In this document: piece by piece, positions 5,661-21,417 of the stretch
Layout of the letters: every line of letters begins with the position of its first letter
Numbering within the stretch: the stretch's first letter is position 1
From: Calditrichota bacterium
GTDB taxonomy: Bacteria; CLD3
DNA: 64,000 nt
Direction of reading: 5' to 3'
NCBI GenBank assembly: GCA_008501735.1
Contig: QQUF01000028.1
Span: 93,813 to 157,812 of the forward strand
Position numbers and translations under genes: made by a program
The notes under the pieces: generated by a model
What the model saw: the letters and a program-made list of their open reading frames with translations, nothing else
The model's database searches: none
What the model was told of the DNA's origin: nothing

Positions 5661-6197
5661 ATGGAAAAATATAAAAATAAATATCGTGTAAAATCTGCGA
5701 GAGCAACTTGGGCAAACTATGATGAAAATGGTTTTTATTTCATAACAATTTGTTCGATTGGACATCAAAATTTGTTTGGTGAAATTCAAAAAGATGAAAT
5801 GATTTTGTCTAAGATTGGTGAAATTGTTTCAGAAGAATGGTACAAATCTTTTGAAATTCGTTCTGAATTATTTTGCGAGGCTTTTGTTGTTATGCCGAAT
5901 CACATTCACGGGATTTTGCGGATTTTACAAAACGAAAAGACGCACCGCCGTGCGTCTCTACAGAAGGAAATTGGAGTTGCTTACCGAGCACCGAAATCGA
6001 TTTCTTCTTTTGTTGCAGGTTTCAAATCTTCGGCTACTAAAAAAATTAACAGACACAGAAATTCATTTGGTTTAGCAGTTTGGCAAACGCGATTTCACGA
6101 CCATATTATCAGAAACCCCGAAGAACTTCACCGAATCAAAAATTACATTTTAGAAAATCCCAAAAGATGGAATAAAGATAAATTCTACACTCCGTAG
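5661..6197 (+). CDS. REP-associated tyrosine transposase (RAYT, TnpA-REP / Y1 family)
   Basis: Single-domain HUH-type Y1 transposase (178 aa) of the kind that mobilises or processes REP palindromes as single-stranded DNA. The HUH motif is HIH at residues 81-83 (in VVMPNHIHGIL) and the catalytic tyrosine is Y162 in NYILENPKRW. The gene is flanked by four REP hairpins, two on each side. A fifth lies inside the gene and encodes roughly residues 93-101 (KTHRRASLQ), between the HUH and Tyr motifs where related proteins vary in length. The stop codon TAG (6195-6197) is part of the downstream hairpin's GTAGAGACG sequence. All key residues are present, so the enzyme is probably active. It is domesticated-type, with no IS ends visible. 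Confidence 0.93.
   Translation: MEKYKNKYRVKSARATWANYDENGFYFITICSIGHQNLFGEIQKDEMILSKIGEIVSEEWYKSFEIRSELFCEAFVVMPNHIHGILRILQNEKTHRRASLQKEIGVAYRAPKSISSFVAGFKSSATKKINRHRNSFGLAVWQTRFHDHIIRNPEELHRIKNYILENPKRWNKDKFYTP
5938..5963. repeat. REP hairpin 3, inside the transposase gene
   Basis: Perfect 8-bp stem AGACGCAC / GTGCGTCT around loop CGCC (5938-5957), followed by CTACAG, the same tail as in copies 2 and 5. It is read through in frame as residues about 93-101 of the transposase. A REP element within its own transposase coding sequence is unusual. Confidence 0.9.
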
Positions 6198-15395: not shown

Positions 15396-15522
15396 AACCA
15401 CCCCCAGTTTTTCGTTTTCACAAACTAAAGTTTGAAACGAAAAACTTCCCCTCCTTGTCAAGGAGGGGAGAAATTAGAATTTACGAACTTCAGTTTGTGA
15501 AATTCTAATTTCGGGGGTGGTT
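15396..15522. repeat. Nested three-armed palindromic element (MITE/REP-like)
   Basis: The 368-base gap between the beta-helix gene and the cobalamin-binding protein gene holds this element and no gene I can support. Outer arms AACCACCCCC (15396-15405) and GGGGGTGGTT (15513-15522) are exact inverted repeats. Inside are three consecutive hairpins: 15407-15445 (GTTTTTCGTTT ... AAACGAAAAAC, with inner CAAACT/AGTTTG), 15448-15468 (CCCCTCCTT / AAGGAGGGG) and 15470-15512 (GAAATTAGAATT / AATTCTAATTTC, with inner ACGAAC/GTTTGT). The whole could fold as a three-way cruciform in DNA or a cloverleaf-like RNA. No coding capacity is seen. Confidence 0.85.
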
Positions 15523-15587
15523 TGACACACTTCTAAATTTGCATTAGTCTTTTTAAAATTCGTTTCGTCTCCATTCAACGAACTTTG

Positions 15588-16376
15588 CTAACAATTCTCT
15601 CTAATAATTTTAGCTAAAACTTTCACTCCGTCAGTAAGACTTGCTAAACCAGGTTGAAGCATCAAAATTGGGTCAACTTCAAATATTTTGTTGTTTTTTA
15701 CAGCAGAGATTTTTTGCCAATTTTTGCGATTCGGAATTGTTTCGTCGTATTTTTTGCCACACCAACAAGAGAAAATAATTTCAGGATTTCTTTCGATTAC
15801 TTGTTCGGCAGTAACGAATCTTTCTTTTGCTGATTGCCCTTTTCGTAATTCTGCAAAAATGTCAATTCCACCTGCGATTTCGATTAATTCACTAACCCAA
15901 CGAATTCCTGAAATTATCGGCTCGTCCCATTCTTCAAAATAAACTTTTGGTTTTCGCTTTAATTTTGAGGATTCCAATTTAATTAGTTCAAGATTTAAGG
16001 CTGTTTTTTCGGCAAGTTCTTGAGCTTTCTTTTCCCTTCCGATAATTCCACCGATTACCAAAATCGACGAAAGGATTTCTTCAACAGACCTTTGGTTGAA
16101 AGTAAAAACAGGAACTCCGAGTTTTACAAGGTCTTTAGAAATGTCTGCTTGAAGGTCTGAAAATGCTAAAACTAAGTCAGGTTTTAGGCTTAATATTTTA
16201 TCATAATTTGCTTGAATAAAAGCTGAAACGCTCGGTTTCTTTCGTGCTTCGATAGGTCTTTTTGTGTAAGCGGAAACTCCAACAACTTTGTCTCCTGCTC
16301 CAAGTGCGTAAAGAATTTCTGTAGTTTCTTCTGTTAAACAAATAATTCGTTTTGGGTAGTCGAATTTGAATTTCAT
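15588..16376 (-). CDS. Cobalamin-binding (BtuF-like) protein without signal peptide
   Basis: 262 aa with the periplasmic-binding-protein fold of BtuF-like vitamin B12 or iron-siderophore binders: RIICLTEETTEILYALGAGDKVVGVSAYT at the N terminus, KPDLVLAFSDLQADI in the middle, and WVSELIEIAGGIDIF plus NPEIIFSCWCGKKY later. The protein starts directly at the first beta strand, with no signal peptide or lipobox, so it appears cytoplasmic; such leaderless cobalamin-binding proteins are known in other bacteria. No ABC permease or ATPase gene is adjacent. The ligand is inferred from family resemblance only. Confidence 0.82.
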   Translation of the reverse strand: MKFKFDYPKRIICLTEETTEILYALGAGDKVVGVSAYTKRPIEARKKPSVSAFIQANYDKILSLKPDLVLAFSDLQADISKDLVKLGVPVFTFNQRSVEEILSSILVIGGIIGREKKAQELAEKTALNLELIKLESSKLKRKPKVYFEEWDEPIISGIRWVSELIEIAGGIDIFAELRKGQSAKERFVTAEQVIERNPEIIFSCWCGKKYDETIPNRKNWQKISAVKNNKIFEVDPILMLQPGLASLTDGVKVLAKIIRENC

Positions 16377-16902: not shown

Positions 16903-16979
16903 TGTTTTGCCTTTAAAATTAAATTGTCTCAGAAAATTTAATTTAAGTAAGAAATTTACGCAAGTTGTTCTTAAAATAA

Positions 16980-17016
16980 AAAATGCTCCAAAACTTTAAA
17001 GAACTTGGAGCATTTT
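16980..17016 (-). terminator. Intrinsic terminator after the AtpD-like gene
   Basis: Perfect 12-bp stem AAAATGCTCCAA / TTGGAGCATTTT with a 13-base loop. On the minus strand it is followed by a T-rich run and lies 24 bases after the AtpD-like stop codon. Confidence 0.8.
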
Positions 17017-17040
17017 CTATTTTAGTATTGTTAGAGTATT

Positions 17041-17997
17041 CTAGGCAGTTTCTGTAATACTTTCGAGGTTTCCTTTGTAAAGAAATTCTTTTGGATCTAA
17101 GCCTTGAAAACCATTTTCTAAAAGTTCTTGTAAATCTTTAAGACCTTCTTCTTTTTTTACAAAAACTCCGGGTTTTCCTGTGTAAAGTTGTGCAACAAAG
17201 AAAAACTGTGTCAAGAAATTTTGGATTCTTTGAGCTTGAGTTTCACTTTCTGCAAAATCTGGAAAATTTCCATTTACAAAAAGTTTTTGAACTTTTGCAG
17301 TTACTTCTTTTTGTGCCTCACTCAAAACTTTTGATTTTGAAGCAATTACATCAACTGCTGGATAAATTCCTTTCTTCGCCAACTTTCCATTCAGAATTAT
17401 TTCAGAATCAAAGTTTAAATTTTCGCTGTTTTTGTGTTCAGGAAAACAACTTACCAAAGTCAGAACTTGCCCGTTTTGCAAATTCGGGAAAAATTTGATT
17501 TCTCCGTCCAAAACTCTGTCGTCAATTACTAACAGAACTTTTTCATTTTTTGCCAATTCTTCCGCAAGTGAAATTGTGTTATTTAAGGCTTCACTAAAAA
17601 TTTCCTGTGAATCGTTTGCCTTTGTTAGAACCGAAACAATTTCACCTGCAAGGTTGCATTCTTTGAATTCTAAGAGAATGTCTTGCCACTCACGACTTCT
17701 TTCTTCGACTGCAAGCCAAATGACTTTTCCTCCAACTGTTTTGAGGAAATTTCTGATTAACTCCATTTCCAAGACCAACTTTCCACACCAAGAAGGTCCG
17801 GAAATTTTTGAAATTCCACCAAAAGTTAGAGGGGTAAAAACATCAATTGATTTAATTCCCGATTCAAAAGTTGTCTTCTCTGAATTTGAATTAGTAGAAA
17901 AATCATAGTTTTTCTTTTCAATTTCGATTCTGTCGCTTGAATCAATTCCATTTAATTTATAATCAAAAATTTTACCAAAGATTTCTTGAGTGTTCAT
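17041..17997 (-). CDS. Degenerate ATP-synthase-beta-like (AtpD-related) protein
   Basis: 318 aa. The sequence aligns by eye along F1 beta from about residue 90 to the end: EIFGKIFDYKLNGID matches VLGRIFNVLGEPID; FESGIKSIDVFTPLTFGG matches the strand before the P-loop; the P-loop itself is degenerate, SGPSWCGKL (67-74) where beta has GGAGVGKT, keeping the lysine but losing the Thr/Ser; EERSREWQDIL (98-108) matches GERTREGNDL and keeps the catalytic Glu (E99); GIYPAVD (210-216) and FLTQFFFVAQLYTGKPG are nearly intact. The N-terminal beta-barrel and the DELSEED lever are missing. It therefore cannot be a working F1 beta subunit. It lies downstream of the sigma/ankyrin gene and a chimeric ORF. 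The role is unknown. Confidence 0.82.
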   Translation of the reverse strand: MNTQEIFGKIFDYKLNGIDSSDRIEIEKKNYDFSTNSNSEKTTFESGIKSIDVFTPLTFGGISKISGPSWCGKLVLEMELIRNFLKTVGGKVIWLAVEERSREWQDILLEFKECNLAGEIVSVLTKANDSQEIFSEALNNTISLAEELAKNEKVLLVIDDRVLDGEIKFFPNLQNGQVLTLVSCFPEHKNSENLNFDSEIILNGKLAKKGIYPAVDVIASKSKVLSEAQKEVTAKVQKLFVNGNFPDFAESETQAQRIQNFLTQFFFVAQLYTGKPGVFVKKEEGLKDLQELLENGFQGLDPKEFLYKGNLESITETA

Positions 17998-18324
17998 TTT
18001 ATTTACCTTCCAAAGTTTTTACAGTTTTTGCATTTTCATTAATTTTTGCCCAATCCAAAGCAGTAAGTCCATTTGAATCTTTTAGTTTGATTTCTGCTCC
18101 ACTTTGGACAAGCAAATCCACCATTCCGATTGATAAATTTGATTTGTAGTCAAAAATTTGACCAAACATTTCTTGAGTTTGCATTTTATTTACCTTCCAA
18201 AGTTTTTACGATTTCTGTGTTTTCATTAATTTTTGCCCAATCCAAAGCGGTAAATCCGTTTGAATCTTTTAGTTCGGTTTTTGCTCCATTTTGGATTAAC
18301 AAATTCACCATTCCAATGGAATTG
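17951..18324. repeat. 187-bp tandem duplication, two diverged copies
   Basis: Positions p and p+187 match at roughly 80-90 percent across 17951-18137 and 18138-18324. Each unit contains, on the minus strand, the last ankyrin repeat of the sigma/ankyrin gene (IGMV.LL.Q.GA...LKDSNG.TALDWAKINEN), its stop codon, and the first 16 codons of the AtpD-like gene (M.TQE.FG.IFDYK.N). Duplication of this gene junction has created the small ORF at 17999-18184. Confidence 0.88.
17999..18184 (-). CDS. 61-aa chimeric ankyrin ORF born from a tandem duplication
   Basis: The first 16 residues (MQTQEMFGQIFDYKSN) copy the start of the downstream AtpD-like protein (MNTQEIFGKIFDYKLN), and residues about 18-61 copy the last ankyrin repeat of the upstream sigma/ankyrin protein, including the identical end VKTLEGK and stop. 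The ORF lies 1 base after the sigma/ankyrin stop region and 1 base before the AtpD-like start, so all three would be translated from one mRNA. The reading frame is intact although the two copies have diverged by many substitutions, which is mild evidence for selection. One ankyrin repeat is seldom stable alone, so the product may pair with its parent. Confidence 0.6.
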   Translation of the reverse strand: MQTQEMFGQIFDYKSNLSIGMVDLLVQSGAEIKLKDSNGLTALDWAKINENAKTVKTLEGK

Positions 18325-19376
18325 TTTGTTGCTGCCCAATGCAAAGGAGTTCTACCGAATTTGTCTTTTGTGTTGCAATCAATTCCGCATTCCAAAAGTG
18401 CTTTCAAAATTTCCTCATTCCTTTGTGCGACTGCAAAATGAATTGCTGAAGCGTGAGATTTTTTGTCTTCCGAAGAAGCACCGTTTTTAATTAAAATTTT
18501 TGCGACTTCTGTAAAGTTGTATGAAATCGCAGTAAAAAGTGGAGTTTTCCCGCTCCAATCGGAAACATTGATTTCAGTTTTTTGCTCAATTAAAAATTTT
18601 ACAATTTCGACATTTCCACAAAAAGCTGCCCAATGTAAAGCTGTCCAACCGTCTTGGTTGCTCGTTACATTTTCGTTTGTGCTTGCGTCGTAAGAAGTTT
18701 GCCCGAAGTGAATTCTTGTCGAGTAACGTGTTCCTTCTTTGCTTTCTTGGTAGTTGAGCAAGTTTGCATTCTTTGCAACAATCTCTTTTATTTTTGGCAG
18801 ATTTTCGTTTCTGATTGCATAAAAAAGTTCAAATGATTTTGCAAAGTAATTTTCCTGTTTTTGAGGCATTTGGTTAAATCTTTCTTTTATTTTATTTCTT
18901 GAGAGTTGCAGCCTTTTCTTGACTGTTGTTAGCGGTAAGTCGAACTTTGCCGCAATTTCCTTTTGCGAGTAACCCGATAAATAAAATAATTTTGCGATTT
19001 CGATTTCTTTTGGAGGTAAGTTGTCCAACTCTTCGACAATTTCTTCAAACTGCTCATTTTTTTCAGAGTAACGAAAATTTTTGAGTGAATCCAAAGTTGT
19101 GTGTTGGACTTTGTTTTTACGATTAAACCTTTCGCATTTACCGATTATGATTTTTTTGAGCCAACTCGAAAAAGCTTTTGGTTCTTTCAGATTTTGCAAT
19201 TTCAACCACGCTTCAATAAATGCTTCTTGCGTAACGTCTTTTGCAAAATTTTTATCCCTAACTTTTTCGTAACTTATAAAATAAGAACTTTGGCTAAATC
19301 TAACCACAATCTTAGAAAATGACTTTGCATCACCTTCTTTAGATTTATTTATCAGAATTTCTAAATTTTCAATCAT
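18186..19376 (-). CDS. ECF-type sigma-70 factor fused to C-terminal ankyrin repeats
   Basis: 396 aa. Residues about 8-80 are sigma region 2 (DAKSFSKIVVRFSQS, DKNFAKDVTQEAFIEAWLKL) and 115-167 are region 4 (LPPKEIEIAKLFYLSGYSQ, KEIAAKFDLPLTTVKKRL, a helix-turn-helix). From about 183 to 396 there are about five ankyrin repeats, with clear units QDGWTALHWAAFCGNVEIVK (242-260) and GRTPLHWAATNNSIGMVNLL (341-360). The protein could bind RNA polymerase core and receive a signal through the ankyrin part, in place of a separate anti-sigma factor. It heads the cluster with the chimeric ORF and the AtpD-like gene. No anti-sigma gene is adjacent. Confidence 0.88.
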   Translation of the reverse strand: MIENLEILINKSKEGDAKSFSKIVVRFSQSSYFISYEKVRDKNFAKDVTQEAFIEAWLKLQNLKEPKAFSSWLKKIIIGKCERFNRKNKVQHTTLDSLKNFRYSEKNEQFEEIVEELDNLPPKEIEIAKLFYLSGYSQKEIAAKFDLPLTTVKKRLQLSRNKIKERFNQMPQKQENYFAKSFELFYAIRNENLPKIKEIVAKNANLLNYQESKEGTRYSTRIHFGQTSYDASTNENVTSNQDGWTALHWAAFCGNVEIVKFLIEQKTEINVSDWSGKTPLFTAISYNFTEVAKILIKNGASSEDKKSHASAIHFAVAQRNEEILKALLECGIDCNTKDKFGRTPLHWAATNNSIGMVNLLIQNGAKTELKDSNGFTALDWAKINENTEIVKTLEGK

Positions 19377-19511: not shown

Positions 19512-19724
19512 ATGAATACTGAAAACGATAAAAAAATCTGCCCAATTTGCGAACAAGAAAACAGTTGCAGTTTACTTCAAGGTAAATCAAAATGCTGGTG
19601 CTTCAACCGAGAATTTCCACCTGAACTTTTGGAACTCGTCAGCGAAAAAGAACTTTCTTGCATTTGTGAAAACTGTCTTGAAAAATTCACAGAATTAAAA
19701 GTCCCTCTTGGAAGAGGGATTTAG
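19512..19724 (+). CDS. Small cysteine-rich CWC-type protein
   Basis: About 71 aa from the ATG at 19512 (the frame is open from 19461, but MNTENDKKICPICEQEN is the natural N terminus). The pattern CPICEQENSC, then CWC, then CICENCLEK matches the cysteine-rich CWC family, small presumed zinc-binding proteins of unknown function. The last eight codons (KVPLGRGI) and the stop are contributed by a palindromic repeat, TCCCTCTT/AAGAGGGA, so the original C terminus has probably been replaced. It runs divergently from the sigma/ankyrin gene. Confidence 0.78.
   Translation: MNTENDKKICPICEQENSCSLLQGKSKCWCFNREFPPELLELVSEKELSCICENCLEKFTELKVPLGRGI
19702..19719. repeat. Short palindrome at the end of the CWC gene
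   Basis: Inverted repeat TCCCTCTT / AAGAGGGA with a 2-base centre GG, followed by TTTAGGGAGATG. Its composition resembles dispersed palindromes near genes in related genomes. It encodes the last codons of the CWC protein. Confidence 0.7.
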
Positions 19725-20007: not shown

Positions 20008-21417
20008 ATGCTTTTTGAACCTTACAAAATAAATTCAATGACACTTCCGAATAGAATCGTTCTTCCTGCAATGGTTACAAGACTCAGCGGAGAAGACGGA
20101 TTTGTCAACAAAGAAATTCACGACCGTTACATTCGTTTTGCAAAAGGCGAAGTTGGTTTGATTGTCGTCGAAGCAATGGCAATTCACACGGCAAAAAGTG
20201 GTCCATTACTCAGACTTTCAGATGATAAATTTATCCCTGGGCTTCGAGACTTAGCAAAAGAAATTCACGAAATCAGTCCTTCCAAAGTTGTGCCTCAAAT
20301 TATTCACTTTCTTAAAGTTGCACGTTCAGGTTGGCGACAAAAAATCCAAGACCTTTCGATTGCAGACATCAAAGGAATTATTAAAAATTATGGAGAAGCC
20401 GCTTACCGTTCAGCCGAATGTGGATTTGACGGAGTTGAACTTCATATGGCTCACGCATATACAGTTTCATCTTTCCTTTCTCGCAAAAACACAAGACGCG
20501 ATGAATACGGAGGAAAATCAATCGAAAACAGAATGCGTTTGATGTGCGAAGTTTACGAGGAAGTCCGAAGAAGTGTTGGCAAAGATTTTCCAGTTGGAGT
20601 TCGTTTTGTCGGTGAAGAAGGAATTAAAGGTGGTTATTCAACAGAAGATTCAAAAATTATCGCTCTAAAAATGGCTCAACTTGGATTCGATTACATCAGC
20701 GTTTCAGCAGGCGGAAAATTTGAAGATGCAGTAAAAAAGGAAGGTGAACCACCTTATCCTTACACAGGTTACAGCGGAGACAAATGTATGCCAGGAAGTC
20801 AATATCCTGACGCTTACAACATCTACTTACCTGAAGCTATCAAAAAATACATTAATGCAAATGGTTACAACACTCCGATTGTCGGTGCAGGAAAGATTTC
20901 TAAAAGCTCAACTGCGGAAGAAATTCTTGAAAATGGACAAGCGGATTTAATCGGAATGGCAAGAGCTCTTCTCGCTGACCCAGATTTACCGAAGAAAATT
21001 CGTGAAGGAAGAGAAGACAAAGTTGTTGAGTGTATTTACTGGAATATTTGTAAAGGACTTGACGAAGCATTCAAAAAAGTAACTTGCGGACTTTGGCCCA
21101 AAGGTGCAGTTCAAGCTCCTGAAAGCAATGATGAAAGCATTCCTGAATGGGAAACCGACGGAAAGTTAAAAGCAGAAATCAAAAAAAGTGCAATTCATTT
21201 GAAGTGGGAAACTGCAACTGACGACGAAGAAATTATGGGTTACGATGTTTTCCGTTCTGAAAACGGATTAGATTTTGAAAGAATTTACGCTGTAAAAAGA
21301 CCTTCTTACCAAGACAACACAGCTTTCAGCGGAAATTCTTACTCTTACTTTGTCAGAGCTTACGATTTAGCAGGAAACAAAAGTGTAAAATCAAATGTTG
21401 CAGAAATTAGATTCTAA
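20008..21417 (+). CDS. Old-yellow-enzyme-like flavin oxidoreductase with C-terminal FN3 domain
   Basis: 469 aa, no signal peptide. Residues 1 to about 340 are an FMN-binding TIM barrel of the OYE/2,4-dienoyl-CoA reductase type: LPNRIVLPAM at the N terminus, GVELHMAHAYTVSSFLSRK (142-160), YGGKSIENRMRL, and DLIGMARALLADPDL. In this class a [4Fe-4S] cluster normally follows; here the cysteines are C342, C348 and C360, with W345 in the place of the second ligand, so the cluster is probably lost. The usual third (NADH/FAD) domain is absent. Instead residues about 385-469 form an FN3-like domain (IHLKWETATDDEEIMGYDVF ... YSYFVRAYDLAGNKS). The substrate is unknown. An FN3 domain on a cytoplasmic flavoenzyme is odd. 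Confidence 0.85.
   Translation: MLFEPYKINSMTLPNRIVLPAMVTRLSGEDGFVNKEIHDRYIRFAKGEVGLIVVEAMAIHTAKSGPLLRLSDDKFIPGLRDLAKEIHEISPSKVVPQIIHFLKVARSGWRQKIQDLSIADIKGIIKNYGEAAYRSAECGFDGVELHMAHAYTVSSFLSRKNTRRDEYGGKSIENRMRLMCEVYEEVRRSVGKDFPVGVRFVGEEGIKGGYSTEDSKIIALKMAQLGFDYISVSAGGKFEDAVKKEGEPPYPYTGYSGDKCMPGSQYPDAYNIYLPEAIKKYINANGYNTPIVGAGKISKSSTAEEILENGQADLIGMARALLADPDLPKKIREGREDKVVECIYWNICKGLDEAFKKVTCGLWPKGAVQAPESNDESIPEWETDGKLKAEIKKSAIHLKWETATDDEEIMGYDVFRSENGLDFERIYAVKRPSYQDNTAFSGNSYSYFVRAYDLAGNKSVKSNVAEIRF

Follow-up and report, generated by a model that had tools for sequence, protein, structure and literature searches.

The window, by which we mean the whole stretch of DNA that was analysed (64,000 nucleotides), carries on its reverse strand, denoted (-) below, a compact gene cluster. 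The last gene of this cluster, hereafter the AtpD-like gene, is a frame of 318 codons beginning with ATG and open throughout, the product of which is related to the beta subunit of F1-ATPase (AtpD). The cluster comprises the following features:

17041-17997 (-): AtpD-like protein, 318 aa (TIGR01039 and PF00006 profiles, alignment, structure model, fold search)
17999-18184 (-): chimeric ankyrin ORF of 61 aa, a product of tandem duplication (sequence comparison)
18186-19376 (-): ECF-type sigma-70 factor fused to ankyrin repeats, 396 aa (Pfam, TIGR02937)
17950-18320 (-): tandem duplication, 184-nt copies spaced 187 nt, 86% identical
16972-17024 (-): intrinsic terminator, made up of the AAAATGCTCCAA stem-loop and a T-rich tail behind it, shortly past the stop codon of the AtpD-like gene

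The sigma-ankyrin protein contains sigma-70 regions 2 and 4 (PF04542 and PF08281) as well as PF12796, all above the Pfam cut-offs. The first residues of the 61-aa ORF (MQTQEMFGQIFDYK) copy the start of the AtpD-like protein, and its remainder copies the last ankyrin repeat. The underlying tandem duplication covers the 3' end of the ankyrin part and 16 codons at the start of the AtpD-like gene; since it spans the junction between the two, the sigma-ankyrin and AtpD-like genes were adjacent before the duplication occurred. A dN/dS ratio of about 0.38 was obtained for both parts of the duplicated ends, from too few codons to carry weight.

In the apparent three-gene cluster of the preliminary description, the genes, each 1 nt from the next, follow the order sigma-ankyrin, 61-aa ORF, AtpD-like gene and then the terminator, the fold of which has an energy of -24 kcal/mol (z=-6.35), and a GGAAGG sequence resembling a ribosome site is present at each gene junction. 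The spacing suggests that the three genes are co-transcribed.

Several other elements were noted in the window. Directly behind the terminator of the AtpD-like gene lies a PemK/MazF-type toxin gene (PF02452; 16383-16772, (-)), with an apparent small antitoxin ORF just upstream of it on the same strand, and a BtuF-like periplasmic-binding protein with no evident signal peptide is encoded at 15588-16376 (-) (PF01497). An Old-yellow-enzyme-like barrel (20008-21417, (+)) apparently continues into a C-terminal part that resembles fibronectin type III. The frame at 5661-6197 (+) looks like a REP-associated (Y1/RAYT) transposase, and G+C-rich palindromes (TCCCCTCCTTGACAAGGAGGGGA and TCCCTCTTCCAAGAGGGA) at about 15400-15530 and 19702-19719 may constitute the repeat family of this transposase. 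Defence-system models gave no match for the AtpD-like protein, and only ankyrin-type and weak matches for its sigma-ankyrin neighbour.

Relationship to the ATP synthase beta subunit

The profile search proposed in the preliminary description gave significant matches. The top NCBIfam family for the AtpD-like protein is TIGR01039 (atpD; E=2.9e-32), although the score of 112.1 bits is below the curated equivalog cut-off of this family (462.85). The families MMOB1670 and MSC_0618 ranked second and third, and alternate F1 beta also scored below TIGR01039. PF00006 (ATP-synt_ab) was matched with E=2.1e-17 and 63.9 bits, above the gathering cut-off of 29.5. The best PDB matches are F1 beta chains without exception (E down to 1.8e-25), and they fall in two stretches of the protein, at residues ~7-160 and 196-317. 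These matches place homology to AtpD beyond doubt. The identity to any AtpD is 23-28% (about 26% to the AtpD of the same genome). We regard the gene as a shortened paralogue of the gene for the ATP synthase beta subunit that has diverged strongly from it.

The structure model is consistent with this assignment. With 60 AtpDs as a guide, AlphaFold2 produced a model with a pLDDT of 87.6 and a pTM of 0.89, and a fold search with it matched F1 beta over 314 residues with Z values as high as 35. The pLDDT of the protein folded without an alignment was 37, which indicates that the confidence of the guided model depends on the AtpD alignment and that this model is to be taken as support rather than proof.

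The true atpD gene, which the preliminary description had proposed to look for elsewhere in the genome, was found intact beside atpC on contig C24 (472 aa, with GGAGVGKT and DELSDDD preserved). The AtpD-like gene is located outside any atp cluster, on contig C55, behind the sigma-ankyrin gene. Apart from its product, the PF00006 proteins of the genome are AtpD, one alpha-size protein (a 520-aa open frame, taken as AtpA) and Rho, so that no second F1-like complex was seen.

Retained and lost parts of the protein

The AtpD-like protein was aligned with 28 AtpDs from other genomes and with the AtpD of its own genome. Its residues 1-318 correspond to the part of AtpD that begins near residue 85 and runs to the end (the preliminary description had put the start at about residue 90), which means that the N-terminal beta-barrel (crown) is absent; what is present is the RecA-like core and the C-terminal helical domain of F1 beta. 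The shared region contains 167 AtpD-invariant columns, 53 of which are kept and 32 deleted. The landmarks located by the alignment are as follows:

17776-17799 (-): altered P-loop GPSWCGKL (residues 67-74), Thr/Ser replaced by Leu, GxxxxGK retained
17701-17703 (-): Glu99, where AtpD has the catalytic glutamate of GERTRE (EERSRE in this protein)
17521-17538 (-): Walker B strand VLLVID, Asp159 retained, next segment (RFTQAGSEVSALLGR) deleted
17350-17370 (-): GIYPAVD (residues 210-216), adenine-stacking Tyr (Tyr212) retained
17176-17217 (-): FLTQFFFVAQLYTG (residues 261-274), aromatic adenine pocket retained

The P-loop preserves G67, G72 and K73, and the Walker A pattern GxxxxGK[ST] is broken at its final residue (Leu74). 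Two P-loop glycines and the Arg following Walker B are missing. The Glu99-Arg100 pair of GERTRE is retained, as are Phe266 and Ala269 of the adenine pocket, with Tyr272 being a conservative replacement for Phe. The DELSEED hairpin, the catch loop (DDLTDPAPATT) and two further core segments (ATEMGALQERITST and RFTQAGSEVSALLGR) are deleted or replaced, and every deletion in the gene is in frame. For the adenine-pocket residues, and for the lost loops besides the catch loop, the roles given here are assumed from what is generally known of F1 structure. By this pattern of kept and lost residues, the losses fall on catalysis and on contacts, and the nucleotide pocket is largely retained. In the catch loop of E. 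coli F1, residues D301, D302, T304 and D305 bind gamma and alpha (PMC9447477).

All of the AtpD motifs quoted in the preliminary description were found in the protein, and the alignment agrees with the losses that it had listed (barrel, Walker A Thr/Ser, DELSEED), with the additions that more segments are gone and that GxxxxGK is still in place. In comparison with AtpD, the protein retains the core, the C-terminal helical domain, GxxxxGK, the Glu-Arg pair, the Walker B Asp, GIYPAVD and the adenine-pocket aromatics, but lacks the barrel, the Walker A Thr/Ser, the catch loop, the DELSEED hairpin and two more core segments, and is not encoded in an atp operon. The earlier view of the protein as a degenerate beta relative that is unable to function in the rotary motor has good support.

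Coding status and distribution

The codon score of the AtpD-like frame is +0.355 bits/codon, against -0.57 and -0.52 for the remaining two frames of the same strand and -0.57 to +0.06 for all five other frames at the locus. Its codon bias equals that of the neighbouring genes and its third-position GC matches theirs. The frame contains no stop codon; shuffled sequence gives 26, and when the atpD of the same genome was allowed to drift neutrally to the same identity, a mean of 17 and a minimum of 5 stops were obtained (300 runs). The open frame, set against about 17 stops expected from drift, together with the codon bias, indicates that the gene was constrained through most of its divergence. 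It is therefore not a decayed remnant, although these tests leave room for a recent loss of function. A pseudogene in the sense of a broken frame or lost coding bias was rejected, as the frame is open and a strong codon score is found in this frame only. Neither outcome that the preliminary description had set against its own claim, namely the lack of a profile match or homologues that are only frameshifted remnants, occurred. Indirect support for its suggestion that the gene has been retained for a new role comes from the open frame at ~26% identity, the codon bias, the tight spacing and the terminator.

No orthologue was found when 535 genomes were searched with the AtpD-like protein or neighbouring ones; the genomes covered included 60 relatives, nine of its own phylum, and five further phyla with 77, 3, 39, 195 and 82 genomes. 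The gene was met in its own genome only, and the other matches were true AtpDs with weaker scores. Scans of IMG/VR and PLSDB, within their sensitivity, revealed no orthologue either, and neither did low-sensitivity scans of 84,980 GTDB species, one with exact 8-residue patterns and a later one in which AtpDs took up the matches listed. The sigma-ankyrin gene has no close relative in the 60 genomes, and neither of two genes flanking the AtpD-like locus was found in four relatives. In a tree, the branch of the AtpD-like protein amounts to about 10 changes per column. Within this sampling, the AtpD-like/sigma-ankyrin pair is lineage-specific. A literature search found no description of such an AtpD-like protein.

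Possible roles of the AtpD-like protein

The reading that we tentatively favour, with confidence somewhat short of even, is that the protein is an F1-beta pseudoenzyme repurposed as a pocket-bearing (nucleotide-binding) partner of the sigma-ankyrin protein; the gene order and the retained residues suggest the coupling of the two. According to this proposal, the protein would no longer belong to the rotary motor and would now be a pseudoenzyme that shares an operon with the sigma-ankyrin protein. It would still fold as a RecA-like core with an adenine-nucleotide pocket as its sensing part, but would have neither the Walker A ligand of Mg nor rotary turnover. It might bind the sigma protein at its ankyrin repeats, as its operon position suggests, and its nucleotide state or its level could then set the amount of free sigma factor. 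The fully elaborated version, a module in which the pseudoenzyme reads adenine nucleotides and signals through the ankyrin repeats to the ECF sigma factor, appears rather unlikely.

It is less probable, but a serious contender, that the protein is a structural or partner-binding pseudoenzyme which binds no nucleotide, the AtpD core serving as a scaffold, perhaps in a role that has nothing to do with sigma. Such a protein could do without the Walker A Thr/Ser, and two P-loop glycines and the Arg that follows Walker B are missing as well, and operon position by itself is no guide to function. However, the P-loop Lys, the catalytic Glu, the Walker B Asp and the adenine aromatics go beyond what a scaffold needs, and the 1-nt spacing of the genes and the duplication across their junction speak for a link with the sigma factor.

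We consider it improbable that the gene is dead or dying, i.e. a laterally acquired or duplicated atpD fragment which is still open by chance. Its occurrence in one genome, its low identity to any AtpD, the lineage-specific flanking genes, the duplication at its start and its long branch could all be read in this way, but the absence of stops where neutral drift yields a mean of 17, a codon bias like that of the neighbours and deletions that are all in frame argue against it.

A function as a regulator or assembly factor of the ATP synthase of the same genome, as a dead subunit in the alpha/beta ring, seems very unlikely: the protein has the beta core fold, and the genome encodes one intact AtpD and one alpha-size protein, but the parts by which beta is held in the ring and on the rotor (barrel, catch loop, DELSEED) are absent and the gene is in no atp cluster. 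A second, mycoplasma-like F1 motor, suggested by the ranks of MMOB1670 and MSC_0618, can practically be dismissed, since TIGR01039 scores above both, no second alpha or beta subunit is seen among the PF00006 proteins of the genome, and the alpha- and beta-like subunits of mycoplasmas retain their Walker motifs, with DELSEED also present in the beta-like subunit (PMC3369863). The inventory of PF00006 proteins given above led to the rejection of a second F1-like complex.

MMOB1670 and MSC_0618 are beta subunits of the Type 2 / Type 3 F1-like ATPases of mycoplasmas, paralogues that serve in gliding machinery (PMC11864180) and in the MIB-MIP system (PMC12994834). The AtpD-like protein would resemble them in being used outside ordinary ATP synthesis. 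Their genes, however, lie in clusters of seven that also encode alpha-, gamma- and epsilon-like partners (PMC3369863), whereas the AtpD-like protein has neither the Walker A/DELSEED set nor such a cluster, and a dedicated alpha-like partner of this kind was not found among the PF00006 proteins of the genome. The neighbouring gene product, for its part, resembles ECF sigma factors with C-terminal extensions in that sigma-70 regions 2 and 4 are followed by an extension, but it differs from them in that this extension consists of an ankyrin array and that an AtpD derivative, instead of a known anti-sigma factor, is encoded downstream. Among the papers searched, we found none joining an ECF sigma factor, an ankyrin repeat and a C-terminal extension.

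To conclude, the AtpD-like protein is a real and unusual variant, not described before, that derives from a highly conserved protein, and its status as a singleton limits how far this claim extends. Few proteins in life are as conserved as the F1 beta subunit, which, to our knowledge, is rarely found outside motors. A motor-free beta derivative encoded by a single gene, with its nucleotide pocket retained and its contact surfaces gone, would show that the F1 core can become a sensor or a binding protein.
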